This document shows, piece by piece, positions 20,128-34,910 of a DNA stretch of 64,000 nt. A program made the translations under genes and the position numbers. Each line of letters opens with the position of its first letter. Position 1 is the stretch's first letter. The DNA is from SAR202 cluster bacterium (lineage in GTDB: Bacteria > Chloroflexota > Dehalococcoidia > Lucifugimonadales > Lucifugimonadaceae). The notes beneath the pieces are model-generated. The model searched no databases, was not told the origin of the DNA, and saw nothing but the letters and a program-made list of their open reading frames with translations. Where the stretch lies: positions 1 to 64,000 of the forward strand of contig VGZT01000007.1 in the NCBI GenBank assembly GCA_016872495.1, written 5' to 3'.

Positions 20128-20511
20128 TTGCGACGGGTACAGCGCCTGACACGGCGCTCTGAATTCGAACACACGCGGACCCACGGTGTTCGCGCTGGTG
20201 ACCGTCTCTTCGGGGTCGTGGCAGCGCGGAGCGATCAGGACACTACGCGGTTTGGGCTGGCGGTTAGCAAGCGGGTCGGCCGCGCGGTCGTGCGCAACCG
20301 AATCAAGCGGAGAATCAGGGCGGCGCTCGACGGAATGCCGTTCTCGGAGGGTTGGAACGTAGTCGTTTCTGCGAGGCCAGCAGCAGCCGGCGCAGATTTC
20401 AGCGACATCGCCGAATCATTGCGCAAGCTGAGCAGCCGACTCAAGCTGCTCAGACTTGAAGGGCAGGCCGGAACCACCGAGCCCCCACGATCGGCGACGA
20501 CAGCTCGTTAA
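20128..20511 (+). CDS. rnpA: Ribonuclease P protein component
   Basis: A 127-residue protein partner of RNase P RNA in 5' processing of tRNA precursors. The N-terminus is [19 protein letters not shown]. The RNA-binding signature [20 protein letters not shown] is clear. The C-terminus is longer and less conserved than usual. TTG 20128 gives the normal family start. It sits between rpmH and yidD in the classical order. Confidence 0.93.
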
Positions 20512-20518
20512 TCCAGAT

Positions 20519-20791
20519 ATGAAGCAAACGATCCTGACCCTCTTACGTCTCTACAAGGCGGCGATCTCACCCTACTGGCCCGGTGCCTGCCGGTATGAGC
20601 CGACTTGTTCCGCCTACGCGACGGAGGCGGTCTCAACTCACGGGGGCCTGAAAGGTTCGTGGCTTGCGATCAAGAGGGTCGCCCGCTGCGCGCCCTGGGG
20701 CGCAGGCGGATTTGACCCGGTCCCGGAGCGCGCCGGCGCGCGCCCGGACGTTAAGTCAGCTGGAAGATACGCGGGCTCCACCAACAGATAA
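20519..20791 (+). CDS. yidD: Membrane protein insertion efficiency factor YidD
   Basis: A 90-residue protein with the family hallmarks [30 protein letters not shown] and [15 protein letters not shown]. YidD proteins are small amphipathic membrane-associated factors that assist YidC-dependent insertion. The open frame extends upstream into rnpA, but ATG 20519, seven bases after the rnpA stop, gives the conserved start [13 protein letters not shown]. The C-terminal extension past the PVP motif is unremarkable. Confidence 0.92.
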
Positions 20792-20822
20792 CAAGTTCCG
20801 CCCGGACCAACGGGCGAGATTC

Positions 20823-22121
20823 ATGTGTCCAACGACCCGGAGGGTCGCCACGCAAGCCAAAGCAGTGCCAAGGAAAAGGGGATTGAGCGCGCGCGGGGCG
20901 GCCATCGCATTTGCATTGCTGGTCGCGCTGAGCACGGTCCTCGCGTGTACCGGGAACTTGAGCCCAAGCGGCGGGTGGGCATCACCGGTGACCTCCGGCG
21001 ACTGGGTATACCAGGCGACCCGGCAGGGATCGCTCATCAGGGTCGACGCGAAGACCGGCCTCCGGGATCCAGCGTGGCAGTTTCCAACGGAGGACCAGAA
21101 GTTTGGCGTCATCTACGGGACGCCTCTGGTCACCGATAACGCCGTATACGCCGCCGCATACACCTGCCGTGGCGACAAGTGCGAGGCAAGGGTCTACGCA
21201 GTTTCGACCCGCGACGCGACACCGCTGTGGAGCGAACGGCATTTCGCGCTCGAAACGCAGATCGTCGGGCCGCTCGCCCTGAGCGGCGAGACGCTGCTCT
21301 TCGGCACGGCCGATATCGAACGGGATCGCGGCCGGCAGGGCTACCTGTACGCGATCGACGCGCGTCCCGATGCCGACAAACCCCTGTCGGAGCGGATCGG
21401 CAACCGCTTGAAGTGGCGAGTGCCGGTCGGCGGCAAGATCTGGGGCGGGGTGACCGTCGCGAATGGCGTTGCGTACTTCGGGTCGATGGACCGGAGCATC
21501 TATGCCGTGAACATCTCGGACCAGCTTGCCGCCGGCGCGAGCCGGGTCCTGTGGACGTTCGAGGCCGAAGGGGCGTTCGTTGCGCGTCCGGTCGTGGCCG
21601 GCACGAAGATCTATGTAGGCGACTTCCGGGGCCAGTTCTACAAGCTGGACGTCGAAGCGCGCGCAGCAGACAGGACCCGGCGTACGCTGGACGCCCGGCG
21701 CGAATGGTCCACGGAACTCGAAGGATGGGTCTGGGCCGAGCCGGCGATCGGCGACACAGCGGTCTTCGCGGGCACGCTTGGCGGCAAGGTGTACGCGCTT
21801 GATATCGCGACCGGCAGGTCGTCCTGGGCCACGCCAACCCAGATCGAAGGGCAGGTGATCGGATCGCCGACCATCCTCGGGGCACCGGGGACGCCCACGC
21901 TGGCGGTCCCGTCCAGCAAAGAGGACGTCTGGCTGCTGGACCTTCGCTCTGGAACGGTGCTTGGCGAGTTCAACACCAGGGCGGCGGTCGACGCCACGCC
22001 CGTAGTGCGTGACGGCTTCGTCTACATCCACAGCCGCAACGACCAGCTCCAGACCTTTGCGATTTCGAGCCGGGCGCGCGTGAACTGCATCCAGACGATC
22101 GGCGCGAAGGCATGCTCATGA
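20823..22121 (+). CDS. PQQ-type beta-propeller lipoprotein between yidD and yidC
   Basis: About 432 residues. A basic N-terminal stretch precedes a hydrophobic signal (FALLVALSTVLAC) with a lipobox cysteine, so the mature protein is probably membrane-anchored outside the cell. The rest is repeated beta-propeller strands with PQQ-like blade motifs such as GDWVYQATRQGSLIRVDAKTG, YAIDARPD and GKVYALDIATGRSSW. It resembles BamB-like scaffolds, but no outer-membrane assembly genes are seen. ATG 20823 is chosen because the longer frame overlaps yidD. Its place inside the insertion-factor operon suggests a role in folding or assembly of exported proteins, which is inference. Confidence 0.75.
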   Translation: MCPTTRRVATQAKAVPRKRGLSARGAAIAFALLVALSTVLACTGNLSPSGGWASPVTSGDWVYQATRQGSLIRVDAKTGLRDPAWQFPTEDQKFGVIYGTPLVTDNAVYAAAYTCRGDKCEARVYAVSTRDATPLWSERHFALETQIVGPLALSGETLLFGTADIERDRGRQGYLYAIDARPDADKPLSERIGNRLKWRVPVGGKIWGGVTVANGVAYFGSMDRSIYAVNISDQLAAGASRVLWTFEAEGAFVARPVVAGTKIYVGDFRGQFYKLDVEARAADRTRRTLDARREWSTELEGWVWAEPAIGDTAVFAGTLGGKVYALDIATGRSSWATPTQIEGQVIGSPTILGAPGTPTLAVPSSKEDVWLLDLRSGTVLGEFNTRAAVDATPVVRDGFVYIHSRNDQLQTFAISSRARVNCIQTIGAKACS

Positions 22122-22161
22122 CGTCGCACCGCCTTCGCATTACCGGGGCACGGAGGTCCTG

Positions 22162-23106
22162 ATGGAGTTCCTGGGGATCCTCTGGACCGAGATCATCATG
22201 CGGCCGATGATCAACAGCATCGCGCTGCTCCACGTGTTGCTGTTCGACAACCTGGGGCTTGCGATCATCGTCTTCACGGTCATCATCAGCCTGCTGATGT
22301 TGCCCTTAACGATCCGTCAGACCAATCAGATGAAGGCGATGTCTGCGCTGCAGCCAAAGGTCAAGGCGCTGCAGGAGAAGTACAAGGCGGGCGGTGATCG
22401 CCGGAAGCTCTCGTCTGAGACGATGGCGATGTACAAGCAGGCGGGCGTCTCGCCGATCGGGTGCCTTGGCCCCATGTTCATCCAGATGCCGATCTGGATC
22501 GGCCTTTACCAGGCGATCTTCCGCGTGGTCCCGCCCACGCCAGAGGGCCTGGCTTCGCTGGCCAAGGCGTTCTACTTCTGGAACCCGGCTCAGACCAGCG
22601 TCCCTCTCGGCAGCGACTTCCTTGGCATGGACCTGGTAGGCCTGGTCTCGGGCCAGCCGATCCCGTTCAACTTCCTGTTCCCGGTGCTGGTTGGCGTCTC
22701 GATGTGGATTCAGCAGAAGATCACGACGATGCCTTCGCCGGATCCGAAGCAGGCCCAGACCAACATGATGATGCTCTGGATGCTGCCGATCATGTTCGCG
22801 TTCTTCGCGTTCCAGTTCCCGGCCGGGCTGGCCCTTTACATACTCTTCTCGAACGTCATCAGAGTTGGGATTCAGTGGTTTGTGACGGAGCCTGCGCAGC
22901 GCTCGCAGCTATTCAAGCTTCGCAACTCCGCGCCCCAGCCGACGGCAGCTGCCGTCGAGCCTGCACGCGGAACGTCCGATTCGGACAAGGAGAAACAGAC
23001 CGATGGCGACTCGTCAGTTCACAGCGAAGACGGTGGCCGAAGCAACCGACCTCGCGCTCGTTACGCTCGGACTCAAGCGCGAAGAAGTCGAAATCGCCGT
23101 CGTTAA
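22162..23106 (+). CDS. yidC: Membrane protein insertase YidC/Oxa1
   Basis: A 314-residue insertase. Transmembrane helices start at about residues 25 and 120, with further ones after residue 165. The cytoplasmic helical hairpin is rich in Lys/Met/Gln (TNQMKAMSALQPKVKALQEK). It shows the conserved PIWIGLYQAIF and FPAGLALYILFSNVIRVGIQ. It lacks the large periplasmic domain of Gram-negative YidC, like monoderm-type insertases. The C-terminal tail is strongly basic (RYARTQARRSRNRRR), as expected for ribosome contact. The last 104 bases overlap the start of jag in another frame. Confidence 0.93.
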   Translation: MEFLGILWTEIIMRPMINSIALLHVLLFDNLGLAIIVFTVIISLLMLPLTIRQTNQMKAMSALQPKVKALQEKYKAGGDRRKLSSETMAMYKQAGVSPIGCLGPMFIQMPIWIGLYQAIFRVVPPTPEGLASLAKAFYFWNPAQTSVPLGSDFLGMDLVGLVSGQPIPFNFLFPVLVGVSMWIQQKITTMPSPDPKQAQTNMMMLWMLPIMFAFFAFQFPAGLALYILFSNVIRVGIQWFVTEPAQRSQLFKLRNSAPQPTAAAVEPARGTSDSDKEKQTDGDSSVHSEDGGRSNRPRARYARTQARRSRNRRR

Positions 23107-23974
23107 CCCCGGCCGCGCCGGGATACTGGGATTCGGTGGCGAGCCTGCAGTGATCTCGGTGACGTCCCTGGACACACGCGAGGGCGCCGCAACGGCGGTA
23201 CGTGCCGCTCCACGCACCGAAATCGAGCCCCCTCGTCGACGCAATGAAGCGCCGGTCGCGATGCCCGCTGAAACCGATGATGACGACGACGCGGATGACG
23301 ATGAAGACCGCGACGAATTCGATTCCGACGAGGACGGCGACGACGAGGCGGTCGCGTCCGATGACGACGATGAGGTCGACGAGACCGATTCCGACGATGA
23401 CGACGACGTAGAGGACGACGAGCACCGGCAGGAATCTGCCGACGAGCCGCACAGCCCCCGCACGCAGCGTGAGCGGGCGCCGGTGGCGGTTGCCGACCGT
23501 CCGCAGGGCGAGCCCGATCCAGAAGCCGAACAGCTGGCGACCGAGATCCTGGACTTCTTCCTTGGCACGATGGGCGTCGTGGCCACGACCTTCATCCGCG
23601 AGGACTCGCCCGAAGGCGTCACCGCGTTCGAGATCGAGGGCGAGGACGCAGGCCTCCTGATCGGCCGCCGCGGCGAGACGTTGCAGGCCCTCCAGTTCCT
23701 CGTGAACCTGATCGTCAACAAGCAACTCGACCGGCAGGTCTACATCACGATCGATGTGGAAGGCTACCGGGAGCGCCGGCAGGAGTCGCTTCGCACGCTG
23801 GCCCAGCGGACCGCGTCGAAGGTGGCCGATTCGGGACGTCCGGTCCAGCTTCAGCCGATGCCTGCATCGGAGCGGCGTGTGATTCACATGACCCTGGCCG
23901 ATCATGCCGAGGTGCGGACCGAGAGCAAGGGCGATGGCGATCAGCGCCGGGTGGTGGTGCTGCCGAAGCGCTAG
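23003..23974 (+). CDS. jag: Jag/KhpB RNA-binding protein
   Basis: A 323-residue protein with the standard Jag order. The Jag_N domain is RQFTAKTVAEATDLALVTLG, then GRAGILGFGGEPA. A very acidic Asp/Glu-rich linker spans about residues 90-145. The KH-like domain is GLLIGRRGETLQALQFLVN and the R3H domain is YRERRQESLRTLAQRTASKV, ending with ERRVIHMTLADHAEV. It binds RNA in partnership with KhpA in other bacteria. The start lies inside yidC, and Jag_N requires it, so the overlap looks genuine. The linker is longer and more acidic than in many homologues. Confidence 0.92.
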   Translation: MATRQFTAKTVAEATDLALVTLGLKREEVEIAVVNPGRAGILGFGGEPAVISVTSLDTREGAATAVRAAPRTEIEPPRRRNEAPVAMPAETDDDDDADDDEDRDEFDSDEDGDDEAVASDDDDEVDETDSDDDDDVEDDEHRQESADEPHSPRTQRERAPVAVADRPQGEPDPEAEQLATEILDFFLGTMGVVATTFIREDSPEGVTAFEIEGEDAGLLIGRRGETLQALQFLVNLIVNKQLDRQVYITIDVEGYRERRQESLRTLAQRTASKVADSGRPVQLQPMPASERRVIHMTLADHAEVRTESKGDGDQRRVVVLPKR

Positions 23975-24104
23975 CCTGCGCTCGGTTTCCGTCCGGTCAG
24001 GGAGCGGCGCAGGCGGCCAGAATCCCCTCTGAGTGAACGAACGCTTGCCTGTGTACAATGCCGTGCGGCAGGCCTGATTCGGATTCACACTCGGAGCCTT
24101 TCGC

Positions 24105-25136
24105 GTGGACGCTTCCGAAGCCCCAATCCCCACCGGTATGGACAGGATCGAAACGCTCGGGCCGACCGTGCTCGACCAGATCTCCAGGGCCGTTTCAGAG
24201 GTCGTCGAGGCGACCGCGCGGGCGATCGTCAGCGTGCGCATCAGCCGCCCGGGACCCGTTCCGTCGCCCTCCAGCGTCAGCGCGCCCGGGATCGGGAGCG
24301 CCGGTTCGGGGGTCGTCATTGAGCCCGGCGGGCTCATCCTTACCAACGCCCACGTGGTCAGCCTCGCCAGTTCGGTGCGGGTTACGTTCAGCGACGGCCT
24401 GACGCTCCCCGCCGAAGTCGCCGGCAGCGATGCCGATACCGACCTGGCCCTGCTTCGGGTCCGGCAGAAGGGCCTGCCGCACCTTCACTGGGCGCTGCCA
24501 GAAACCATGCGGCCCGGCATCTTCGTGCTCACCCTGGGAAGGCCAGGCGGCGGGCAGATTGCGGTGACGACCGGAATCGTGAGCGCAATTGGCCGTACGC
24601 TGCGGGTGGCGTCTGGCGAGCTGCTCCAAAACGTGATCCAGACGACCGCCTCCTTGATCCCCGGCACCAGTGGGGGAGCGCTCGTCGATGCGAGGGGCCG
24701 CCTGGTCGGCCTGAACGTGGCCGCCCCCCTTCCAGCCGCGAGCGCGGTGGCATTCGCGATCCCCGCCGACACGGCGCAGTGGGTCACCGAGCGCCTGCTC
24801 GCGGATGGCCGGATCGTGCGGCGCAATCTGGGCTTTGCCGGCCAGGCGACGCCGGTGAACCCGTGCCTTGCGGGGCGAATCGGGCTCGCGATCACGCGCG
24901 GCGTCTCGGTCGAATATCTCGATACCGACGGTCCAGCCGAGCGCGCAGGGCTGGCGCGTAAGGACGTGATCGTCGAGATCGCCGGCCGTCCGGTACACGA
25001 CCTCGGGATGATCCAGCGGATCGTCGCCGAGCCGGACCTGAGCGACGCCCTTAGCGTGGTCGCTATCCGGGCCGACCGCCGCATCGACCTGATGCTCGAA
25101 CCACAGGACGCTTCTCCGGTCGCAGCCGGATCGTGA
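24105..25136 (+). CDS. HtrA/DegP-like trypsin-fold serine protease with PDZ domain
   Basis: A 343-residue protein with a complete catalytic triad: His in LILTNAHVVS (about residue 83), Asp in DADTDLALLRV (about 113) and Ser in IPGTSGGALVDARG (about 189). A C-terminal PDZ-like domain follows (VEYLDTDGPAERAGLARKDV). Unlike most HtrA proteins there is no hydrophobic signal or membrane anchor at the N-terminus, so it may be cytoplasmic or the start may be misjudged. The start is GTG 24105. It precedes the crotonase/acyl-CoA ligase genes by 12 bases and may be co-transcribed with them. Confidence 0.85.
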   Translation: MDASEAPIPTGMDRIETLGPTVLDQISRAVSEVVEATARAIVSVRISRPGPVPSPSSVSAPGIGSAGSGVVIEPGGLILTNAHVVSLASSVRVTFSDGLTLPAEVAGSDADTDLALLRVRQKGLPHLHWALPETMRPGIFVLTLGRPGGGQIAVTTGIVSAIGRTLRVASGELLQNVIQTTASLIPGTSGGALVDARGRLVGLNVAAPLPAASAVAFAIPADTAQWVTERLLADGRIVRRNLGFAGQATPVNPCLAGRIGLAITRGVSVEYLDTDGPAERAGLARKDVIVEIAGRPVHDLGMIQRIVAEPDLSDALSVVAIRADRRIDLMLEPQDASPVAAGS

Positions 25137-25148
25137 ACCGGTCCTGAT

Positions 25149-25895
25149 TTGGCCGGCCAAAGCCTGGTCGCCATCGAGGTCGCGCGTGGTGTCGCCCGCA
25201 TCGCGCTGCACGGCTCACGCGCAGGGTCACACGCGAACTTGCGGCTGGCCGAACAACTGCGTGCCACGCTTGAAGAGATCTCCGTCCTGGACACTGCGCG
25301 GGTCGTGCTGTTGAGTTCCGACGGACCAGATTTCTGGCGCGGCGGCGCTGGAAGGGTCGCGACCACAACGGACGTCAATCGATACCGCATCGCATCGCAC
25401 CTGGCGGCAGTGCCGCAGCCGGTGGTTGTTGCGATCCAGGGCCGCGCGTTCGACCAGGGACTGGAGTTTGCTCTCGCGGGTGACATCCGGATCGCGGCCG
25501 ACGACGCCCGATTCGCGCTCAGGCAGCTAACGAGGGGCCAGCTCCCGTTCGACGGGGGTACGCAACGCCTGTCGCGCGTGGTGAGACGGGGCGTCGCGAC
25601 CGACATGCTGCTCACCGGGCGGGAACTCACCGCAGCGGAAGCGCTCGCGTGCGGCCTGGTGAGCGAGGTTGTTGTTCCCGGCCGGCTGCTGGCCAGGGCG
25701 ATCGATATCGCAGAAGGTATCGCCATGCGCGGCGCCGCAGCCACCCGCTTCGCGCGCGAGGCCATCAGACGGGGCAGCGATCTGCGGCTGGACGACGGGA
25801 TGCGCCTGGAAGCCGACCTGAACTTTCTTCTCTTCCCGGACGAGGACCGCCGGGCTGGCCTGGATGCCTTCCGGAAACGACGCAAACGGACATGA
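25149..25895 (+). CDS. Divergent crotonase-family protein
   Basis: A 248-residue protein with the enoyl-CoA hydratase/isomerase fold: QPVVVAIQGRAFDQGLEFALAGDIRIAA region, FDGGTQRLSRVV, and ELTAAEALACGLVSEVV. One catalytic glutamate position (GLEFALAGD) is kept. The second, normally in a PE(x)LG motif, reads LRQLTRGQL, so the standard hydratase acid/base is missing. The oxyanion loop is also altered. It probably catalyses another crotonase reaction or is regulatory. TTG 25149 starts the frame, and the end overlaps the next crotonase gene by four bases (ATGA). Confidence 0.7.
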   Translation: MAGQSLVAIEVARGVARIALHGSRAGSHANLRLAEQLRATLEEISVLDTARVVLLSSDGPDFWRGGAGRVATTTDVNRYRIASHLAAVPQPVVVAIQGRAFDQGLEFALAGDIRIAADDARFALRQLTRGQLPFDGGTQRLSRVVRRGVATDMLLTGRELTAAEALACGLVSEVVVPGRLLARAIDIAEGIAMRGAAATRFAREAIRRGSDLRLDDGMRLEADLNFLLFPDEDRRAGLDAFRKRRKRT

Positions 25896-26614
25896 GCGCA
25901 GCTTTCAAGACGATCGAGTATCGGAAGGATGGCCCGCTCGCGTGGGTGATCCTGAACCGGCCCGACAAGGTAAACGCTTACAACCTCCAGATGCGGGACG
26001 ACCTCTGGGAGGTGCTCTTCGCGATCGAGGCCGATAGCGAGGTGAAAGCGGCCATCCTGTGCGGCAACGGAGAGCGCGGCTTCTGCGCGGGCGCCGATCT
26101 TTCCGAGTTCGGAACCGCTCCGTCACAGATCGCCGCTCGACGCGTGCGCTGGGAACGTGACGTGTTCGGGAAACTTGCCGCATTGCGTGTACCCTCGATC
26201 GCGGCGGTCCACGGGCACGTCATCGGCTCCGGCCTGGAACTTGCCCTGCTGTGCGACCTGCGGATCGCCGCGGCCGACGCGCAGTTCTCGATGCCCGAGA
26301 CGGGGCTGGGCCTGATCCCGGCGGCAGGCGGCACGCAAACGCTCGCCCGTGTCGTCGGTGTGCCCGCCGCGCTCGATATGATCCTGAGGGGCACGCTACT
26401 CGGCGCCAGCTCCGCGCTTGGGATCGGGCTGGTCGGCCGGGTCGTCGACCGCCAACGGCTGAGGCCGGCGGCAGAGGCGCTGGCGAGGAAGCTTGCTTCA
26501 ATCCCGCCGGACGTTCTTGCGCGCGGGCGTTCATGCATGGCGGCGGCTGAAAACCTACCGATCGATCTGGGGCTTGAGTTCGAGGCCAGGCAGGTACACG
26601 CTCTTCAGCAATGA
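25892..26614 (+). CDS. Enoyl-CoA hydratase/isomerase
   Basis: A 240-residue crotonase with canonical motifs: LNRPDKVNAYNLQMRDDL, the oxyanion CAGADLSEF, both catalytic glutamate regions (HVIGSGLELALLCDLRIA and MPETGLGLIPAAGGTQTLAR), and LGASSALGIGLVGRVV. It is likely to hydrate 2-enoyl-CoA in a beta-oxidation-like route. ATGA overlaps on both sides tie it to the preceding crotonase and the following acyl-CoA ligase in one operon. The exact substrate is not known. Confidence 0.85.
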   Translation: MSAAFKTIEYRKDGPLAWVILNRPDKVNAYNLQMRDDLWEVLFAIEADSEVKAAILCGNGERGFCAGADLSEFGTAPSQIAARRVRWERDVFGKLAALRVPSIAAVHGHVIGSGLELALLCDLRIAAADAQFSMPETGLGLIPAAGGTQTLARVVGVPAALDMILRGTLLGASSALGIGLVGRVVDRQRLRPAAEALARKLASIPPDVLARGRSCMAAAENLPIDLGLEFEARQVHALQQ

Positions 26615-28233
26615 ACACCCTCGATCTTCTGGAGATCGCTTCGTCGATCGTGCCGGACCGCATCGCCTTGCTGGAGAGCTCAGGCGATCAGCGGCAGGCC
26701 ACGTATTCCGAGTTGCGCATGCGGGTTGGTCGGCTGGCAAGTGCCATGGAGGGCCTCGGTGTGAAACGGGGCGACCGCGTCGCCCTTCTCGATGTGAACT
26801 CGCCGGCCCACGTGGAAACCTACTTCGCATGCGCCGCCATCGACGCCATCTTTGTACCGGTCAACTTCCGGGCGCGCCCGCGCGAGCTCGCCGGGATGCT
26901 GGCATCGGTGGAGCCAGCGCTCGTAGTCGCCTCGCCGAGATACGTGGATGTGGTCGACGAGGCCGTGAGGCAGGTGCGCCCCGGTGCCATACGGATGTCG
27001 ACCGGCCCGACGGGCGCACAGGGCTGGGTCGACTACGAAACGAAGCTGGCCGCGCGGGATCCCATGGATCGGCCGCCGGACGGTGGCGACGAATCCCCTA
27101 CGATGGTCATGTTCACTTCGGGGACCAGCGCCAGGCCACGCGGGGTCACGCTGACCCATTCGAGCTTCTGCTCCTACGTACTCGGAAATGTCACGCCCGC
27201 AGAACCGACCTCCGAGGAGCGGGTCGCCATTACCGTCCCGCTCTATCACATTGCGGGCGTACAGGTGTTGATGGCCGGTGTCTACGGAGGGCGCGTGCAC
27301 GTACTGCAGCCGCAGTTTGAGCCGGCGGCATGGATGCAGCTGGTCGAGCATCACCGCATATCCAGGGCGATGCTGGTCCCGACCATGATGCGTGCGGTGG
27401 TCGAGCACCCCGATTTCGACAGGTATGACCTGAGTTCACTCCGCTTCATCACCTACGGCGCCGCGGCGATGCCGGTCGACGTCCTCGAGAAGGCGATCGA
27501 GCGGTTCCCCAACGCGAGCTTCATCAACGCGTTCGGGCAGACCGAATCTGCGGCGACGATCACGATGCTCGGCCCCGAGGACCACCATCTCCGAGGAGAC
27601 CCGGTCGAGGTAGAGAAGAAGCGCCGCAGGCTGCGTTCGATCGGGAAGCCATTGCCAGATGTCGAAGTCCGGATCGTGGGAGAGTCTGGCAACGATGTGG
27701 CGCCCGGCGAGACCGGGGAGATCGTGGCGCGCGGCGCACGCATGATGAAGGGTTACTGGGGCAGCCCGGATGCGACCCGGACGGCGCTCCAGGGTGGCTG
27801 GCTGCATACGGGCGACCTCGGTTATCAGGACGGAGACGGGTACATCTTCCTGGCCGGCAGGGCTCGCGAGTTCATCAAGCGCGGCGGCGAGATCATCTCG
27901 CCTGAGGAGGTCGAGGAGGTACTCTCATCGCATCCGGCGGTCCTTGAAGCGGCGGTGATCGGGGTGCCTGATCGTGCCTGGGGGGAGGTCGTCCACGCGG
28001 TCGTTGCCCTGCGGCCGGGCGCGGCAGTGGCGGCAGCCGAGCTGATCGAACACTGCCGCAGGAGTATCGCCAGCTTCAAGAAGCCCGAACGCGTCCATTT
28101 CGTGGACCAGCTGCCGCGCACCCAGCTGGGCAAGATCATGCGATCGGAGCTGCGCGACCGGTTTGCGCCCCCTGCCGCGGCTTCGGGCCCGTGTCTGCCA
28201 GAATCCGGAACGAAGGGGCGCGCCAGCGAGTGA
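26611..28233 (+). CDS. AMP-forming acyl-CoA ligase
   Basis: A 540-residue member of the ANL adenylating superfamily. Motifs in order are the P-loop MFTSGTSARPRGVTLTH (Arg replaces the usual Lys), YGAAAMPVDVL, INAFGQTESAATITM, WLHTGDLGYQDGDGYIFLAG, the hinge REFIKRGGEIISPEEVE, and the catalytic C-terminal lysine in RTQLGKIMRSELR. It activates a carboxylic acid as an acyl-CoA using ATP. Its start overlaps the hydratase stop (ATGA). Substrate chain or ring type cannot be read from the sequence. Confidence 0.87.
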   Translation: MNTLDLLEIASSIVPDRIALLESSGDQRQATYSELRMRVGRLASAMEGLGVKRGDRVALLDVNSPAHVETYFACAAIDAIFVPVNFRARPRELAGMLASVEPALVVASPRYVDVVDEAVRQVRPGAIRMSTGPTGAQGWVDYETKLAARDPMDRPPDGGDESPTMVMFTSGTSARPRGVTLTHSSFCSYVLGNVTPAEPTSEERVAITVPLYHIAGVQVLMAGVYGGRVHVLQPQFEPAAWMQLVEHHRISRAMLVPTMMRAVVEHPDFDRYDLSSLRFITYGAAAMPVDVLEKAIERFPNASFINAFGQTESAATITMLGPEDHHLRGDPVEVEKKRRRLRSIGKPLPDVEVRIVGESGNDVAPGETGEIVARGARMMKGYWGSPDATRTALQGGWLHTGDLGYQDGDGYIFLAGRAREFIKRGGEIISPEEVEEVLSSHPAVLEAAVIGVPDRAWGEVVHAVVALRPGAAVAAAELIEHCRRSIASFKKPERVHFVDQLPRTQLGKIMRSELRDRFAPPAAASGPCLPESGTKGRASE

Positions 28234-29913
28234 ATGGACCAGATGATGACGGCTGGCGAACCAGCTGAGCCCGGGATCACCCCGATCCCGGTTCCTCCCG
28301 GCTTCCCGGTGAAGTGGGATACCGAGGAAGAAGCGAACCTGCTGTGGAGCTGGGACGAGTTCCACGCCCCGCTCCCGCGCTCGCCCATGAGCCAATCGCT
28401 CGCCGAGATCACGCGGGTGGGGATGAACCGGGCGACCCGGGAGACCGGGCGCTACACGTCTAGCCTGCGCAAGACCTTCAACGGTTACCCGTATTCGGCG
28501 GCGTTGCCGAAGGACGAGACCGCGGAAGACAAGCAGCTCAAGCAAGCCTTGATCGACAAGGCGATTGAAAGCGCGTGGGACCGGTGGCAGCACGAATGGG
28601 AGCCGAAGCTGGTCGCCGACCTGGAGCAGATGAAGTCGGTCGACCTTTCGAAAGGGTCCGATATTGCATTCCTTGCGACGCTCGACCGATTCCTGGCGCT
28701 GCACGGGGAGCACTGGTATCTGCATCACCTGATCGTGATGCCGACGATAGAGGCGGCGAGTCGCCTTGAGCAGGCCTACGTGGAGGCGGTCGGAGAGAAG
28801 GGAAAGGCGGACGCGCACAAGCTCCTCCATGGCACGGAAACGAAGACCGCCCGGTCGATTCGAGCGCTCGACGCGCTGGCCACGGCCAGCCGGAAGGCCC
28901 GGGGAGTCAAGGAGGCCGTCGACGATGCGCGGGACGTGGATGATCTGCGGCGTCGACTCGCGACCACGCCTGCCGGCCGGGCCTGGCGCCGCAGGTTTGA
29001 GGGCTACCTGTCCGAGTTCGGCTACCGCACCACCGGATTCGACTTCATCTATCCGACCTGGATCGAGGACCCGTCCTTCGTGCTGATGAATATCAGGGCA
29101 AGGGTCGCGAGCGGCGCGGCGGTGGATCTCTGGGCAAAGGGCCACCGGGAGTTGGGCGCGGAGCGCGCTCGCCTGCTGGCGGCAGTCGAGGAACGACTCG
29201 CCGCCGAGCCGGAGCGACTGGCCCGGTTCCGGCGGATATACGAGACGGCCCAGCGGCTCTGGCCGCTGAAGGAGGACCACTCCTTCTACATCGACCAGGC
29301 CAGCACTGCCCTGGTGCGACACGGCATCGCCGAGCTGGGCCGGCGCCTTGCAGGACACGGGCTGATAGCGCGTCCAGAGGACGTCTACTTCCTGGTGTTC
29401 GCCGAGGCGAGTGGCGCGCTGCGAAACAGCGCGACCCCTGGTACAAAGGCTGACGGACTCGACAGGCTGGCGCGCACCCGTCGAGCGGAACGCGAAGCAT
29501 GGTCGCGACTCAGACCTCCGAAGTACCTCGGGGCGTATCCAGCTGATTACAAGGGCGAGCGGGAATCATCTCCGGCCATCACGGAGGCGTTCCGCGAATT
29601 GCGTGGAACTGCGGCATCGGCGGGCAGCGGCACGGGTCGGGCGGTAGTAGTCATGTCCCCGGACGACTTCGACAAAGTCCGGAAGGGCGACGTACTGGTC
29701 TGCCGTTCCACGGCGCCAATGTGGACGCCGCTTTTCGAGATCGTCGCGGGGCTGGTTTCAGAAGCCGGCGGGATGCTTTCCCACCCTGCCGTAGTGGCCC
29801 GCGAGTTCGGACTGCCCGCGGCGGTCGGGGTGCGGGGCGCCACCGCTCTGATAAGGGACGGCCAGGTGATCAATGTGTCCGGGACCGAAGGGATTGTGCG
29901 GCTGGTCGAATGA
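28234..29913 (+). CDS. PEP-utilising enzyme with phosphohistidine swivelling domain (split PEP-synthase-like, part 1)
   Basis: A 559-residue protein. The N-terminal 440 residues are mainly helical and charged, resembling the middle domain of rifampicin phosphotransferase-like or phenylphosphate synthase proteins. The C-terminal about 90 residues are the phosphohistidine swivelling domain: VCRSTAPMWTPLFEIVAGLV then EAGGMLSHPAVVAREFGLP, with His517 as likely phosphorylation site. No ATP-grasp domain is present; it is encoded by the next gene. The two would together transfer a phosphoryl group from ATP to an acceptor. The start follows the ligase stop without a gap (TGA-ATG). The acceptor is unknown. 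Confidence 0.75.
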   Translation: MDQMMTAGEPAEPGITPIPVPPGFPVKWDTEEEANLLWSWDEFHAPLPRSPMSQSLAEITRVGMNRATRETGRYTSSLRKTFNGYPYSAALPKDETAEDKQLKQALIDKAIESAWDRWQHEWEPKLVADLEQMKSVDLSKGSDIAFLATLDRFLALHGEHWYLHHLIVMPTIEAASRLEQAYVEAVGEKGKADAHKLLHGTETKTARSIRALDALATASRKARGVKEAVDDARDVDDLRRRLATTPAGRAWRRRFEGYLSEFGYRTTGFDFIYPTWIEDPSFVLMNIRARVASGAAVDLWAKGHRELGAERARLLAAVEERLAAEPERLARFRRIYETAQRLWPLKEDHSFYIDQASTALVRHGIAELGRRLAGHGLIARPEDVYFLVFAEASGALRNSATPGTKADGLDRLARTRRAEREAWSRLRPPKYLGAYPADYKGERESSPAITEAFRELRGTAASAGSGTGRAVVVMSPDDFDKVRKGDVLVCRSTAPMWTPLFEIVAGLVSEAGGMLSHPAVVAREFGLPAAVGVRGATALIRDGQVINVSGTEGIVRLVE

Positions 29914-30016
29914 CTGCCCTTGCCCGGGCTCGCCGAGTCCGGTCGCGTCCGGGCGCGCTATTCAACATCGAGATGGACGCAGGCCGGCCGGCCTCGTCTC
30001 TACTTGAAAGCATGGG

Positions 30017-31048
30017 GTGCGAGGTGCCTCACCTGTGATCCCTGGCGCAGCGCGAGGTGGACACGAACGCCTGGTTGTGAACCTGGCGGAGGCCGCTGAC
30101 CCATCGCGCGCGGGTGGCAAGGGGCACGGCCTGTACTCGTTGTTGAAGCTCGGATTCAACGTGCCGCCCGGATTCGTCGTTACGAGCGCGGCCTACCGCC
30201 GAGCCGCCGCCGCCGCTGCGGTGCGGGCCGCCATCGGCACTTTTGAATCGCATGCAGCAGCCGCACGCGTGCCGTCCCCTCAGGCAAGCGCTGCCCTGGA
30301 AAGAGTCCGGTCGGCGTTCATCGACACCGCGATCGACGTTGAGGTCCGCGCGGAAATCGACGCCGCCTGGGAGCTTCTGGTCGAATCGGCGCCTGGAGAA
30401 ATCGTCGTCGCCTGCCGCTCCTCTGCGATTGGTGAGGACTCACGAGACGCCAGCTACGCGGGGCAACACGCGACGCGCCTGGGACTGCGCGACATCGCCG
30501 GTGTGCTCCGGGCGATCGGGGAGTGCTGGGCTTCCTACTGGACCGACCAGGCGGTCGCCTACCGTCGACGGGTCGGCGCCGGGCCGCTTGCCATGGCAGT
30601 TGTTGTTCAGCGCGTGATACGCGCCGAGCTATCCGGCGTCGCGTTCACGGTGAACCCGGTGACCGGGGATCCCGGGGAGGTCGTCGTTAACAGCACCTAC
30701 GGGCTTGGTGAGTCGGTGGTCTCGGGCAGTGTCACGCCCGACACTTACGTCGTCAGGAAGTCGGACGGCGAGCTGCTGGCGAGCGAGATCTCGGAATCGA
30801 AGTCGGTGATGCTTGAGGTCGGCAAGTCGGGCGGGACGGTCGAGCGGGCGGTTGAGCCCGCGCTCGCCGCAGCCTCATCGCTCTCTCCCGGGCAGCTGGC
30901 CGAAGTGGTGGCGAGGGCGATCGAGATCGAGTCCAGGTCTGGTTCCCCGCAGGATATCGAATGGGCGATCGAGAACGGCGAGCTGTTTCTACTCCAGGCG
31001 AGGCCCGTTACGACCACCTCCCCACGGTCGGGATCCCGAGGTCTTTGA
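30017..31048 (+). CDS. ATP-grasp (PPDK_N-like) subunit of a PEP-synthase-like enzyme (part 2)
   Basis: About 343 residues corresponding to the N-terminal ATP-binding domain of PEP synthase: AGGKGHGLYSLLKLGFNVPP, VACRSSAIGEDSRDASYAGQ, AELSGVAFTVNPVTGDPGEV and QDIEWAIENGELFLLQARPV. It lacks the histidine swivelling domain, which is supplied by the preceding gene. This division resembles the alpha and beta subunits of phenylphosphate synthase. The start is uncertain: GTG codons at 30017, 30035 and 30077 are all possible. It ends the operon, with an 82-base gap before the DUF1800 gene. Confidence 0.8.
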   Translation: MRGASPVIPGAARGGHERLVVNLAEAADPSRAGGKGHGLYSLLKLGFNVPPGFVVTSAAYRRAAAAAAVRAAIGTFESHAAAARVPSPQASAALERVRSAFIDTAIDVEVRAEIDAAWELLVESAPGEIVVACRSSAIGEDSRDASYAGQHATRLGLRDIAGVLRAIGECWASYWTDQAVAYRRRVGAGPLAMAVVVQRVIRAELSGVAFTVNPVTGDPGEVVVNSTYGLGESVVSGSVTPDTYVVRKSDGELLASEISESKSVMLEVGKSGGTVERAVEPALAAASSLSPGQLAEVVARAIEIESRSGSPQDIEWAIENGELFLLQARPVTTTSPRSGSRGL

Positions 31049-31130: not shown

Positions 31131-32531
31131 ATGACCGCGCCCAGTCGCACCGTGACCGGCAGGCAGGCTTCGGCCGGCGAGGCCGACCTGGTCGGCCACC
31201 TGATGCGTCGAGCCGCTTTCGGCGCACGTGCCGAAGAGCTGGAAGCACTGGCCATGCGTGGGTATGAGGCGGTCGTCGACGACCTGGTGAACCCGGAACG
31301 GCTCCCGCCACTGGCCGAGGATGTGATCGAGCGCTTCCATTCGGACCAGGCGGATGACGAGTCGACCGCGTGGACGGCCACCCGTTGGATCTACCACTGC
31401 ATCAACTCGAGCAGGCCGCTCGAGCACAAGATGGCGCTGTTCTGGCACGGCCTGTTCGCCACCGCCGTGTCCAAGGTCACGAACAACCCCATGATGCGGG
31501 ACCAGTTCGCGATGCTGCGTGACAACGGGCTCGGGAACTTCCGCACGATTCTGCAGAAGCTGGCGCGCGACCCGGCGATGATCTACTGGCTTGACCAGCA
31601 GCAGAACCACTCGGCGGCCGTCAACGAGAACTGGGGGCGCGAGCTGCTCGAGCTCTTCAGCATGGGTCGCGGCAACTACACGGAAGACGACGTCAAGGCA
31701 GCGGCGCGCGCTTTCACCGGATGGACGATCGACCAGACGTTCCCGCGCTACCCGTCCGGCTACTACGACGCCCGCTTTATCTATCGACCCGAGGACCATG
31801 ACGAGTCGGAGAAGGAGTTCCTGGGGCGCCGTGGGAACTTCAACGGCGACGACATCATCGACATCATCCTCGAGCAACCGGCCACCGCCCGCTACCTGGC
31901 GTTGCATCTCAGCAAATTCTTCGTCGCCGACGAGCCGGAGAATGCCCAGGTGGAGGCGCTGGCCAGGATCCTGGTCGATACCGGCTACGACATAAGGGCG
32001 TCGATGCGTGCGCTGTTCCTTTCCGAGCACTTCAAGGGTGCCCGGTTCAAGCGGGTCAAGTGCCCGGCGGAACACGTGATCGGTACGATCCGGATCGCCG
32101 GCCGGTACAGCGAGCCATGGGAGCCGGGGATCGACATGCTTGAGGACGTGATGACCCGCATGGGACAGCAACCGCTCAATCCGCCTACGGTTGAGGGCTG
32201 GCACCCGGGGCGGGAGTGGATCGACTCGGCGTTCCTGATCGAGCGCGTCAACTTCGCTGCGGGGATCCTGGGTGATCCGGCGGCGCCTGGCGTGGTGGCC
32301 ATGGCGAGGCGCATCGCATCCGGGCGCAAGAAGATCGAGGCGCGCCGGCTCGTCGAGGCGGTGCTTTACGAGATGGGCTCGCTCTCGCTGCCGGACGCGG
32401 CAAAGCAGCAGATCCTGGAGAACCTCGAACTGGTTGGCGACGTCTCGTGTGCCCCGGCCGCCGGATTTGCCGAGGTGGTGGCGCGCGTGAGTCGCACCAT
32501 AGCGACGTCCCCGGAGTTCCAGCTCGAATAG
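31131..32531 (+). CDS. DUF1800 family protein
   Basis: A 466-residue protein with the DUF1800 hallmarks: HLMRRAAFGARAEELEALAM, KMALFWHGLFATAVSKV, AVNENWGRELLELFSMG, YTEDDVKAAARAFTGWTI and PPTVEGWHPGREWIDS. The family's biochemical function is not established. It is nearly always paired with DUF1501, as here. A strong ribosome-binding site (AGGAGGAT) fixes ATG 31131; the longer upstream frame overlaps the ATP-grasp gene. No clear signal peptide is seen, although many family members are exported. Confidence 0.85.
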   Translation: MTAPSRTVTGRQASAGEADLVGHLMRRAAFGARAEELEALAMRGYEAVVDDLVNPERLPPLAEDVIERFHSDQADDESTAWTATRWIYHCINSSRPLEHKMALFWHGLFATAVSKVTNNPMMRDQFAMLRDNGLGNFRTILQKLARDPAMIYWLDQQQNHSAAVNENWGRELLELFSMGRGNYTEDDVKAAARAFTGWTIDQTFPRYPSGYYDARFIYRPEDHDESEKEFLGRRGNFNGDDIIDIILEQPATARYLALHLSKFFVADEPENAQVEALARILVDTGYDIRASMRALFLSEHFKGARFKRVKCPAEHVIGTIRIAGRYSEPWEPGIDMLEDVMTRMGQQPLNPPTVEGWHPGREWIDSAFLIERVNFAAGILGDPAAPGVVAMARRIASGRKKIEARRLVEAVLYEMGSLSLPDAAKQQILENLELVGDVSCAPAAGFAEVVARVSRTIATSPEFQLE

Positions 32532-32574
32532 TCAACCGGCCGGGGTAAGTGGAACGAAAGGCGTAGAGAGGCGG

Positions 32575-33759
32575 ATGGCAGCCAACAAGACGAATGGAAC
32601 CAGTGGTCAGCGGTCGGCAAGCGGGAAACCGCCCGTGCTGGTCGTGCTTCAGCTTTCCGGCGGAAACGACTTCATGAGCACGGTCGTGCCCTATGGCGAC
32701 CCGCACTACTACGACTTCCGGAAGACGGTCGGGATCAAGGAAGCCGATGTCCTGCGGGTCGACGGGCGAATAGGTTTCCACCCGGCGCTCAAGACACTGA
32801 AGAGCATGTACGACCAGGGGCAGGTTGCGATCATCCAGGGGATCGGTTACCCGAACCCGGACCGGTCGCACTTCCGCTCGATGGACATCTGGCACACCGC
32901 GGAGCCATCGAAGATCGTCGCCGACGGTTGGCTCGGGAAGGCGATTCACGACCTGGACCCGCAGAAGCAGAACGTTTGTACCGGCGTCAGCTTTGGCCAG
33001 GGGCTGCCGCGGGCGATGTATTTCTCGGGCACTCCGGTCATCTCGGTCGCGCACCTGGAGAGCTACGGCCTGCTGACCACGTTGTCGGGGCGCGAGCAGC
33101 GGGCTGCGCTGAACGCATTCACGCGCATGTATGCTCCGGAAGAGTTCGGCGAGGCCAGCCTGGTCCTCGGCCACATCGGTCAGACCGGCCGTGACGCAAT
33201 GACGGGCGCGGACATGCTCAAGGTCGCCCCCCAGAAATACCAGTCCAGCGTGGAGTACGCGAGCGACACCCTGGCGCAGAGCCTGCGGGGCATCGCCCAG
33301 GTCCACCTGTCCGGCGTGGGGACGCGCGTGTTCTATGCGCAGCACGGTGGGTACGACGTCCACGGTTCACAGATACAGACCCAGCCCAAACTGCTGGGCC
33401 AGGTCTCCCGTGCCGTCAACGACTTCTTCGCTGACCTGCGCGACCACGATGCCGCGGAGAATGTCGTGATGCTGATCTTTTCCGAGTTCGGCCGTCGAGT
33501 TCGCGACAACGGGAACGGGACCGACCACGGTTCGGGCGGTGGCGCGTTCCTGCTTGGCGAGCGCGTGCGAGGCGGGCTGTATGCCGAGTACCCCTCGCTT
33601 GCCCCCGAGAGACAGTCGAGCGGTGACCTGGCATACAACAACGACTTCCGGGTGCTGTACTCCACGATCCTCGAGCAGTGGATGGGCCTCGACGCGGTGC
33701 CGATCGTGAATGGCACCTTCGAGCAGTTTGACGGCCTGCTCAAACCGGCTGCCGCATAG
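32575..33759 (+). CDS. DUF1501 family protein
   Basis: A 394-residue member of the DUF1501 family, distantly sulfatase/alkaline-phosphatase-like. It shows VLVVLQLSGGNDFMSTVVPY, IIQGIGYPNPDRSHFRSMDI, QHGGYDVHGSQIQTQPKLL, and MLIFSEFGRRVRDNGNGTDH then GSGGGAFLLG. The DHG-like motif near residue 322 could bind metal. It is partner of the DUF1800 gene 43 bases upstream and is followed after 11 bases by an NHL propeller gene. No export signal is visible at the N-terminus. The substrate is unknown. Confidence 0.85.
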   Translation: MAANKTNGTSGQRSASGKPPVLVVLQLSGGNDFMSTVVPYGDPHYYDFRKTVGIKEADVLRVDGRIGFHPALKTLKSMYDQGQVAIIQGIGYPNPDRSHFRSMDIWHTAEPSKIVADGWLGKAIHDLDPQKQNVCTGVSFGQGLPRAMYFSGTPVISVAHLESYGLLTTLSGREQRAALNAFTRMYAPEEFGEASLVLGHIGQTGRDAMTGADMLKVAPQKYQSSVEYASDTLAQSLRGIAQVHLSGVGTRVFYAQHGGYDVHGSQIQTQPKLLGQVSRAVNDFFADLRDHDAAENVVMLIFSEFGRRVRDNGNGTDHGSGGGAFLLGERVRGGLYAEYPSLAPERQSSGDLAYNNDFRVLYSTILEQWMGLDAVPIVNGTFEQFDGLLKPAAA

Positions 33760-33770
33760 GAGAGAGGCGA

Positions 33771-34910
33771 ATGACTGGCATCGCTGAGCGACGAACCGCC
33801 CCGCCCCTTTCAGACGCGATCCCCGCGCCGCGTGCGCCGGTGCAGCCCGGATATCCCACCCTGTTCAGGCGGGGCCACCAGTTCGAGATAGCGCTCGGCC
33901 AGCGATTGGCGCTCGGCGGGTTCAAAGGGCCGATGGACGTGGCGTTCGGGCCCGACGGCTGGCTCTATGTCATGAATCGCTACCCAAACGACGGACACCT
34001 TGCCGGCGTTCGGTGGGTGCAGGTGAACGTGCAGGACGATGGCTACGAGTTCGAGGTTGTCCCGAAAGATCCGCCAGGGAAACCAGGCTCGACCGGCCGC
34101 GAGTGGCTATCCGGGCTCCAGATGACCGTGTGCGACAGCGAGGGTGTCCTGTATTCGGCCGACGAGTACCGGCACATGGTGGTCCGCTGTCGTGTGACCG
34201 GTGAGACGATCGGCCACTGGGGCGACCCGGGGACGAGGCCGGGGCAGTTGAACGGTCCGACCGGCATGTGCCTGGACGCCGACGAAAACCTGTGGATCGT
34301 CAACACCCTGAATCACAGGGTCGATCACTACACCCGGGACGGGCAGTGGCTGGGCGGTTTCGGGAAGTTCGGATCTGCCCCGGGCGAACTGAACCTGCCG
34401 TGGGGCGTGGCCGTCGATCCGATCAACGGTACGATCGTGGTGGCCGACTGGCGCAACGACCGCGTGCAGCGGTTCTCCACCGCTGGCAAGCACCTGCAGA
34501 CGATCGGCCGTCCGGGGCACGGGGTCGGCGAGTTGCATCGCCCGGCCGGGGTAGCGGTCGACAGCCACGGCGACATCTATGTGGCCGATCGCGGGAACAA
34601 CCGCGTGCTGTCGTTCAACTATCGCGGGATGTTCGTGGAGTCGTTCATCGGCGACGCCGTGATCAACGAGCGGGGCATGAAGAAGGTGCTCACGAACCTG
34701 GACATGGTGCGGATGCGCGACAACATCGAGAACCTCGACCGCGAGAAGAGGCTCAAGTCGCCCGGCTCGGTCCGGGTCGACAACAAGGGCCGGGTGTACA
34801 TCGTCGACACCGGCCGCTACCGAATCCAGGTATACCGCAAGTGGTGCAAGGTGCTGGGCGACGATGAAGTTGATCCGCCCACCCTGCACGTGGATCCCGT
34901 ACTGACCTGA
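33771..34910 (+). CDS. NHL-repeat beta-propeller protein
   Basis: A 379-residue protein made mostly of NHL-type blades: GFKGPMDVAFGPDGWLYVMN, LNGPTGMCLDADENLWIVN, LNLPWGVAVDPINGTIVVAD, LHRPAGVAVDSHGDIYVADR and KSPGSVRVDNKGRVYIVDTG, about six blades. NHL propellers serve as binding scaffolds or lyases; no catalytic site is recognised. A GGAGAGAGG stretch precedes the ATG. Tight spacing after DUF1501 suggests a three-protein complex or pathway. Confidence 0.8.
   Translation: MTGIAERRTAPPLSDAIPAPRAPVQPGYPTLFRRGHQFEIALGQRLALGGFKGPMDVAFGPDGWLYVMNRYPNDGHLAGVRWVQVNVQDDGYEFEVVPKDPPGKPGSTGREWLSGLQMTVCDSEGVLYSADEYRHMVVRCRVTGETIGHWGDPGTRPGQLNGPTGMCLDADENLWIVNTLNHRVDHYTRDGQWLGGFGKFGSAPGELNLPWGVAVDPINGTIVVADWRNDRVQRFSTAGKHLQTIGRPGHGVGELHRPAGVAVDSHGDIYVADRGNNRVLSFNYRGMFVESFIGDAVINERGMKKVLTNLDMVRMRDNIENLDREKRLKSPGSVRVDNKGRVYIVDTGRYRIQVYRKWCKVLGDDEVDPPTLHVDPVLT

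Follow-up and report, generated by a model that had tools for sequence, protein, structure and literature searches.

Evidence for a two-component small-molecule dikinase in a SAR202 lineage whose gene neighbours do not reveal its substrate

The window, a stretch of 64,000 nucleotides from a SAR202 cluster bacterium, carries two genes that together resemble a divided PEP synthase, behind two crotonase genes and a gene for an AMP-forming acyl-CoA ligase (ECH1, ECH2 and ACS). This arrangement raises the question of what the kinase pair phosphorylates and whether it acts together with the CoA genes. The original prediction saw one operon, in which a split, permuted kinase may phosphorylate an unusual alcohol or phenol and the product is processed as a CoA ester. 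We consider it highly probable that these two proteins form a two-component small-molecule dikinase, that the pair stands behind ECH1-ECH2-ACS only in this lineage, and that its neighbours do not reveal its substrate.

The five open reading frames were confirmed at their predicted positions in the ORF list of the window, and Pfam assigned both the swivelling and the ATP-grasp protein (Table 1). The pair had been described as directly behind the CoA genes with ATGA overlaps. Such overlaps join ECH1 to ECH2 (at 25892) and ECH2 to ACS (at 26611), and the swivel gene follows the ACS stop with a zero-base gap, but the ATP-grasp gene begins ~100 bp past the swivel gene, without overlap. Its start is uncertain between GTG 30017 and an in-frame GTG at 30077, the latter being the better fit to relatives. 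On the 5' side of these genes lie rnpA, yidD, a PQQ-repeat protein gene, yidC, jag and an HtrA-like protease gene (named by sequence recognition), and on the 3' side genes for DUF1800, DUF1501 and NHL-repeat proteins (Pfam); every gene named shares one orientation. The three 3' genes (31131-34910) were not found in the ACS loci of relatives.

Table 1. Genes and catalytic codons of the kinase locus, in window coordinates.
Feature	Coordinates	Strand	Basis
ECH1, crotonase-fold	25149..25895	+	Pfam ECH_1
ECH2, enoyl-CoA hydratase-like, both catalytic Glu present	25892..26614	+	Pfam ECH_1
ACS, AMP-forming acyl-CoA ligase	26611..28233	+	Pfam AMP-binding plus C-domain
Swivel protein, 559 aa	28234..29913	+	Pfam PEP-utilizers only, residues 483-553
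Glu347 codon, RPH Glu667 equivalent, motif KEDHSFYID	29272..29274	+	Alignment, RPH comparison
His517 codon (CAC), catalytic phosphohistidine in SEAGGMLSH, RPH His825 equivalent	29782..29784	+	Alignment, RPH comparison
Standalone ATP-grasp subunit (RPH/PEPS/HpeI type)	30017..31048	+	Pfam PPDK_N only, 31-337
Lys35 codon, RPH Lys22 equivalent, invariant	30119..30121	+	Alignment
Arg134 codon, RPH Arg117 equivalent, invariant	30416..30418	+	Alignment

The swivel protein is made up of an acceptor domain resembling the RIF-binding domain of rifampin phosphotransferase (RPH) (residues ~20-440) and a C-terminal phosphohistidine swivel domain (~455-559). Its AlphaFold2 model (mean pLDDT 90.4) aligns with RPH residues ~290-867 over 501 residues (Z 30.9, rmsd 4.6), with ~20% identity over the acceptor domain and 21-22% over the acceptor and swivel parts. 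The PPDK_N domain is located on a separate protein of ~340 residues (Pfam), whose AlphaFold model (pLDDT 86.9) matches RPH and the solved HpeI structure 9goj. Since the PPDK_N match has an E-value of 6e-79 and the RPH match a Z of ~31 over ~500 residues, these similarities are not due to chance. The structural comparison with RPH, suggested along with the original prediction, matched both halves and found the catalytic residues intact. His517 and Glu347 are invariant in an alignment of 32 homologues, as are Lys35, Arg134 and Thr153 (the RPH Thr136 equivalent) among 15 aligned ATP-grasp proteins; the roles of RPH Lys22, Arg117, Thr136, Glu667 and His825 were either mutation-tested in RPH or deduced from its structure (PMC4844700). 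The T/SxxGGxxxH motif is satisfied by SEAGGMLSH, in which Leu515 occupies the -2 position, so that there is no regulatory Thr two residues before the His, and the position of RPH Arg666 is taken by Lys346. Alignments and predicted models establish how the pair folds, how its domains are ordered and which residues are catalytic, and its anatomy is that of HpeHI, CreHI and PpsAB, to which we liken it by domains and motif.

The evidence supports a split dikinase of the PpsAB type whose catalytic residues are intact and which likely targets a small organic acceptor. The predicted resemblance to phenylphosphate synthase holds to this extent, but no UbiD-type carboxylase lies alongside. The identification as a kinase is sound, and the kind of kinase is already known, not new. 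From the analogy with these systems we infer its reaction and substrate, following the mechanism described for two-component small-molecule dikinases (HpeHI/CreHI/PpsAB; PMC12167813). The ATP-grasp subunit would bind ATP and the swivel domain would dock onto it, whereupon His517 would accept the beta-phosphate, the gamma-phosphate being lost as Pi and AMP left. The swivel would then return to the acceptor domain, in which Glu347 and its neighbours would position the phosphohistidine for transfer to a hydroxyl (or an amine) of the acceptor, a small organic molecule that is most likely an aromatic or another catabolic substrate.

As the sole PPDK_N and sole PEP-utilizers proteins of a 2.34 Mb, 98% complete genome, the pair could be taken for a diverged PEP synthase making PEP for central metabolism, and its ATP-grasp part does score well against PEP synthase models. 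We regard such a role as extremely improbable: neither protein contains the PEP/pyruvate-binding barrel, PEP synthase and PPDK structures match just the last ~105 residues of the swivel model, and the swivel protein has its domains in the same order as RPH, which reportedly does not use pyruvate (PMC4844700). The gene order, described originally as reversed and permuted, is indeed opposite to that of the fused enzymes PEP synthase and RPH, but the published hpe cluster is arranged in the same way, hpeH then hpeI, so no permutation is involved. Neither protein is rearranged internally, and the family contains either order: the swivel gene comes first in G000, G012 and G014, and the ATP-grasp gene in G019, G036, G060, G108, G109, G112 and G113. 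An adjacent pair in swivel-then-ATP-grasp order is also found in two relatives (L074, L076).

A tree built from 53 swivel-type proteins places the window protein in a group with L073-L077, five proteins of Chloroflexota (support 100/99). This group is separate both from the fused, RPH-like proteins that the same family contains and from a Pseudomonadota/Acidobacteriota/Bacillota group, the deepest joins of the tree being weak. Identity to homologues from aromatic-degrader lineages is 25-28%. A search with the swivel protein gave no match in viral contigs, and plasmid records yielded distant matches only (27% identity or partial). With RPH as the closest solved structure, and with the NCBIfam models for RPH, RedH and PigC scoring well, though far below their cut-offs, the pair might inactivate an antibiotic or activate a group for condensation, as RPH and PigC/RedH respectively do, instead of starting a catabolic route. 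We judge this unlikely, as RPH is a fused enzyme with Arg666 where the window protein has Lys, acceptor domains vary widely among paralogues, and the surroundings of the pair showed no recognisable resistance or biosynthesis genes.

The favoured assignment, a small-molecule dikinase, leaves the question of its link to the CoA genes, and here the relatives are informative. Those that carry names in the contig collection are MAGs of Chloroflexi/Dehalococcoidia, UBA1151 and a SAR202 MAG among them. The block rnpA-yidC-jag-HtrA-ECH1-ECH2-ACS is conserved over the order, with ACS orthologues 42-65% identical. In 12 of the 13 relatives' ACS loci examined, ACS has ECH2 and ECH1 next to it or close by, and where the flank of these is long enough, yidC and jag follow in most cases. 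Kinase genes adjoin ACS in none of the 13, and none contains a swivel gene; an ATP-grasp gene occurs in three, ~12-13 kb from ACS and beyond rnpA. The genus mate G002 (61% complete) has an opposite-strand ORF after ACS and kinase genes as fragments only. The window ACS has 540 residues, against 520-531 in relatives, and its last ~20 residues fall outside the aligned region. Conversely, the closest swivel orthologues (40-51% identity) lie among unrelated genes, and the neighbours of the ten closest swivel proteins encode MFS, MR_MLE, xanthine-dehydrogenase-like/molybdopterin-binding oxidoreductase, radical SAM, lactamase-fold and Ldh-type dehydrogenase proteins. Because of these relatives' ACS loci and varied swivel neighbours, the juxtaposition is seen as a feature of one genome only.

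Several observations from the CoA genes stand apart from the kinase. Throughout an order of Chloroflexota, two crotonase genes and an acyl-CoA ligase gene remain neighbours of rnpA-yidC-jag(-HtrA), a membrane-insertion/RNA cluster (window 20128-28233; L131-L138, L142, L143). In ECH1, the second catalytic Glu of hydratases is replaced by other residues in the window and in 12/12 relatives' copies, while ECH2 keeps both, so that one complete and one altered crotonase form a conserved pair (orthologues in L131-L143).

That kinase and CoA genes form a single Hpe-like pathway, in which an alcohol or phenol is phosphorylated and the product handled as a CoA ester, now appears doubtful at best. The ATGA overlaps and the zero-base gap speak for it, as does the published Hpe pathway, in which hpeHI is joined by an AMP-forming ligase (hpeE) and a beta-ketoacyl-CoA hydrolase (hpeF). 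The conserved ECH1-ECH2-ACS block without an adjacent kinase, the opposite-strand ORF in G002 and the nearest swivel orthologues without CoA-gene neighbours all argue against it. Neither the HpeCBA carboxylase nor the HpeD phosphatase was found beside the pair, where the neighbours are the DUF1800, DUF1501, NHL and HtrA genes; the genome's single UbiD and its one carboxyltransferase are encoded on other contigs (C14 and C1, respectively). A CBS domain, which the original prediction suggested looking for in a third subunit, had no Pfam match in nine proteins scanned around the pair. A functional operon of kinase pair, crotonases and ligase is thus not supported, and the finding of homologues apart from CoA genes counts against the CoA coupling and leaves the kinase claim intact. 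The position of the kinase behind the CoA genes is probably incidental, co-transcription of ACS and the swivel gene is possible given the zero-base gap, and the gene neighbours are weak evidence on the substrate.

Distant relatives show another arrangement. In three other Chloroflexota loci (L086, L087, L089), of Limnocylindrales type and about 30% identical to the window swivel protein, ACS lies in a cluster with ATP-grasp, amidohydrolase_2, swivel protein and cupin genes. These clusters possibly encode an undescribed aromatic pathway starting with phosphorylation. Since they contain an ACS and the Hpe pathway includes a CoA ligase, an acyl-CoA context remains admissible for this kind of kinase.

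A stronger lead than the CoA coupling, and the part worth following, comes from the distribution of the two subunits. To survey the family, we collected Pfam matches in 76 genomes and classed them by open-frame length, a classification of our own. Twenty genomes carry 48 intact standalone swivel proteins versus 21 standalone ATP-grasp proteins; the remainder have neither, except for fragments in G002 and G045. Fragments aside, no genome among the 76 has an intact swivel without an ATP-grasp, and this co-occurrence argues for the ATP-grasp as the partner even in the 8 of 20 genomes where the two genes are non-adjacent. In 13 genomes there are two to six swivels, every time outnumbering the ATP-grasps. 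The expansion is seen in G004, G019, G023, G054 and G060 (L046, L150-L164), with up to six intact swivels and one ATP-grasp per genome; G019, which is 94% complete, combines six swivels with a single PPDK_N protein of any kind. MAG fragmentation could hide ATP-grasps, yet exactly one was recovered repeatedly by the same search. The catalytic His is kept in 32/32 swivel-type proteins that reach the site (of 34 aligned, the other two end before it), and the acceptor-site motif is variable (EDHNWWID, EDHNYYID, ENHNYWID, REARAFW, KDERGLY). Fused RPH-like dikinases (870-980 aa, ATP-grasp first) also occur in the family, in genus g12 (e.g. L020, L022, L023, L025, L028), and in G108, G109, G112 and G113 a fused dikinase exists alongside a separate split pair.

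As controls, 19 genomes of other lineages, reached through loci, were counted in comparison. They contain 44 swivels and 38 ATP-grasps, and in 10 of 16 multi-swivel genomes the ATP-grasps at least equal the swivels; the difference from the family gives a Fisher p of 0.0004, without correction for relatedness. Outside the family there is an exception, G077, where the swivel is accompanied solely by a protein of the fused PEP synthase type. A test for extra constraint on the swivel domain in genomes with one ATP-grasp and many swivels was not discriminating, the swivel/acceptor identity ratio being ~2.0-2.5 among their paralogues versus ~2.0 in control genomes with one ATP-grasp per swivel.

From these gene counts we tentatively propose that in this Dehalococcoidia-related family a single standalone ATP-grasp subunit charges several different swivel/acceptor subunits whose genes lie elsewhere in the genome, a suggestion that we hold at slightly less than even confidence. 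With the same reserve, the phosphoryl donor may be common to a set of interchangeable substrate modules, much as the PTS is divided into general and sugar-specific parts, and the window genome would then represent the smallest, one-to-one version. No shared-subunit dikinase was found in one open paper collection, and the passages of SAR202 papers that were covered make no mention of this kinase family. If the proposal is true, new phosphorylation chemistry could evolve by duplicating the acceptor half alone, and a single purified ATP-grasp protein could screen a whole family of kinases without assigned substrates. Independently of it, two-component small-molecule dikinases are extended to an uncultured Chloroflexota lineage, in which gene neighbours guide poorly to their substrates.

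Among known systems, PEP synthase and PPDK have ATP-grasp and swivel domains in common with the window pair, which differs in having no PEP/pyruvate domain and in its C-terminal His domain. RPH of Listeria monocytogenes has the same three domains and residues equivalent to Lys35, Arg134, Thr153, Glu347 and His517, but it is one chain with the ATP-grasp first, while the window encodes two separate ORFs and a Lys for Arg666. HpeHI (the hydroxyphenylethanone kinase of Rhodococcus rhodochrous GD02), CreHI and PpsAB share the division into an acceptor protein with C-terminal swivel and a separate ATP-grasp protein; among themselves, HpeH, CreH and PpsA are about 45% identical. HpeHI is further alike in its swivel-first gene order, the T/SxxGGxxxH motif without a regulatory Thr before the His, and the match of the ATP-grasp model to HpeI; it differs in phylum, in the size of HpeH (71 kDa, against the smaller 559-aa window protein) and in its adjoining carboxylase and phosphatase genes. 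Phenylphosphoamidate synthase Pas-alpha/beta of Desulfatiglans anilini is a two-component kinase of the same kind, which illustrates that such kinases can use N-acceptors and that ~27% identity between alpha subunits is compatible with shared chemistry (PMC7500099). D. anilini has distinct alpha/beta pairs for phenol and aniline.
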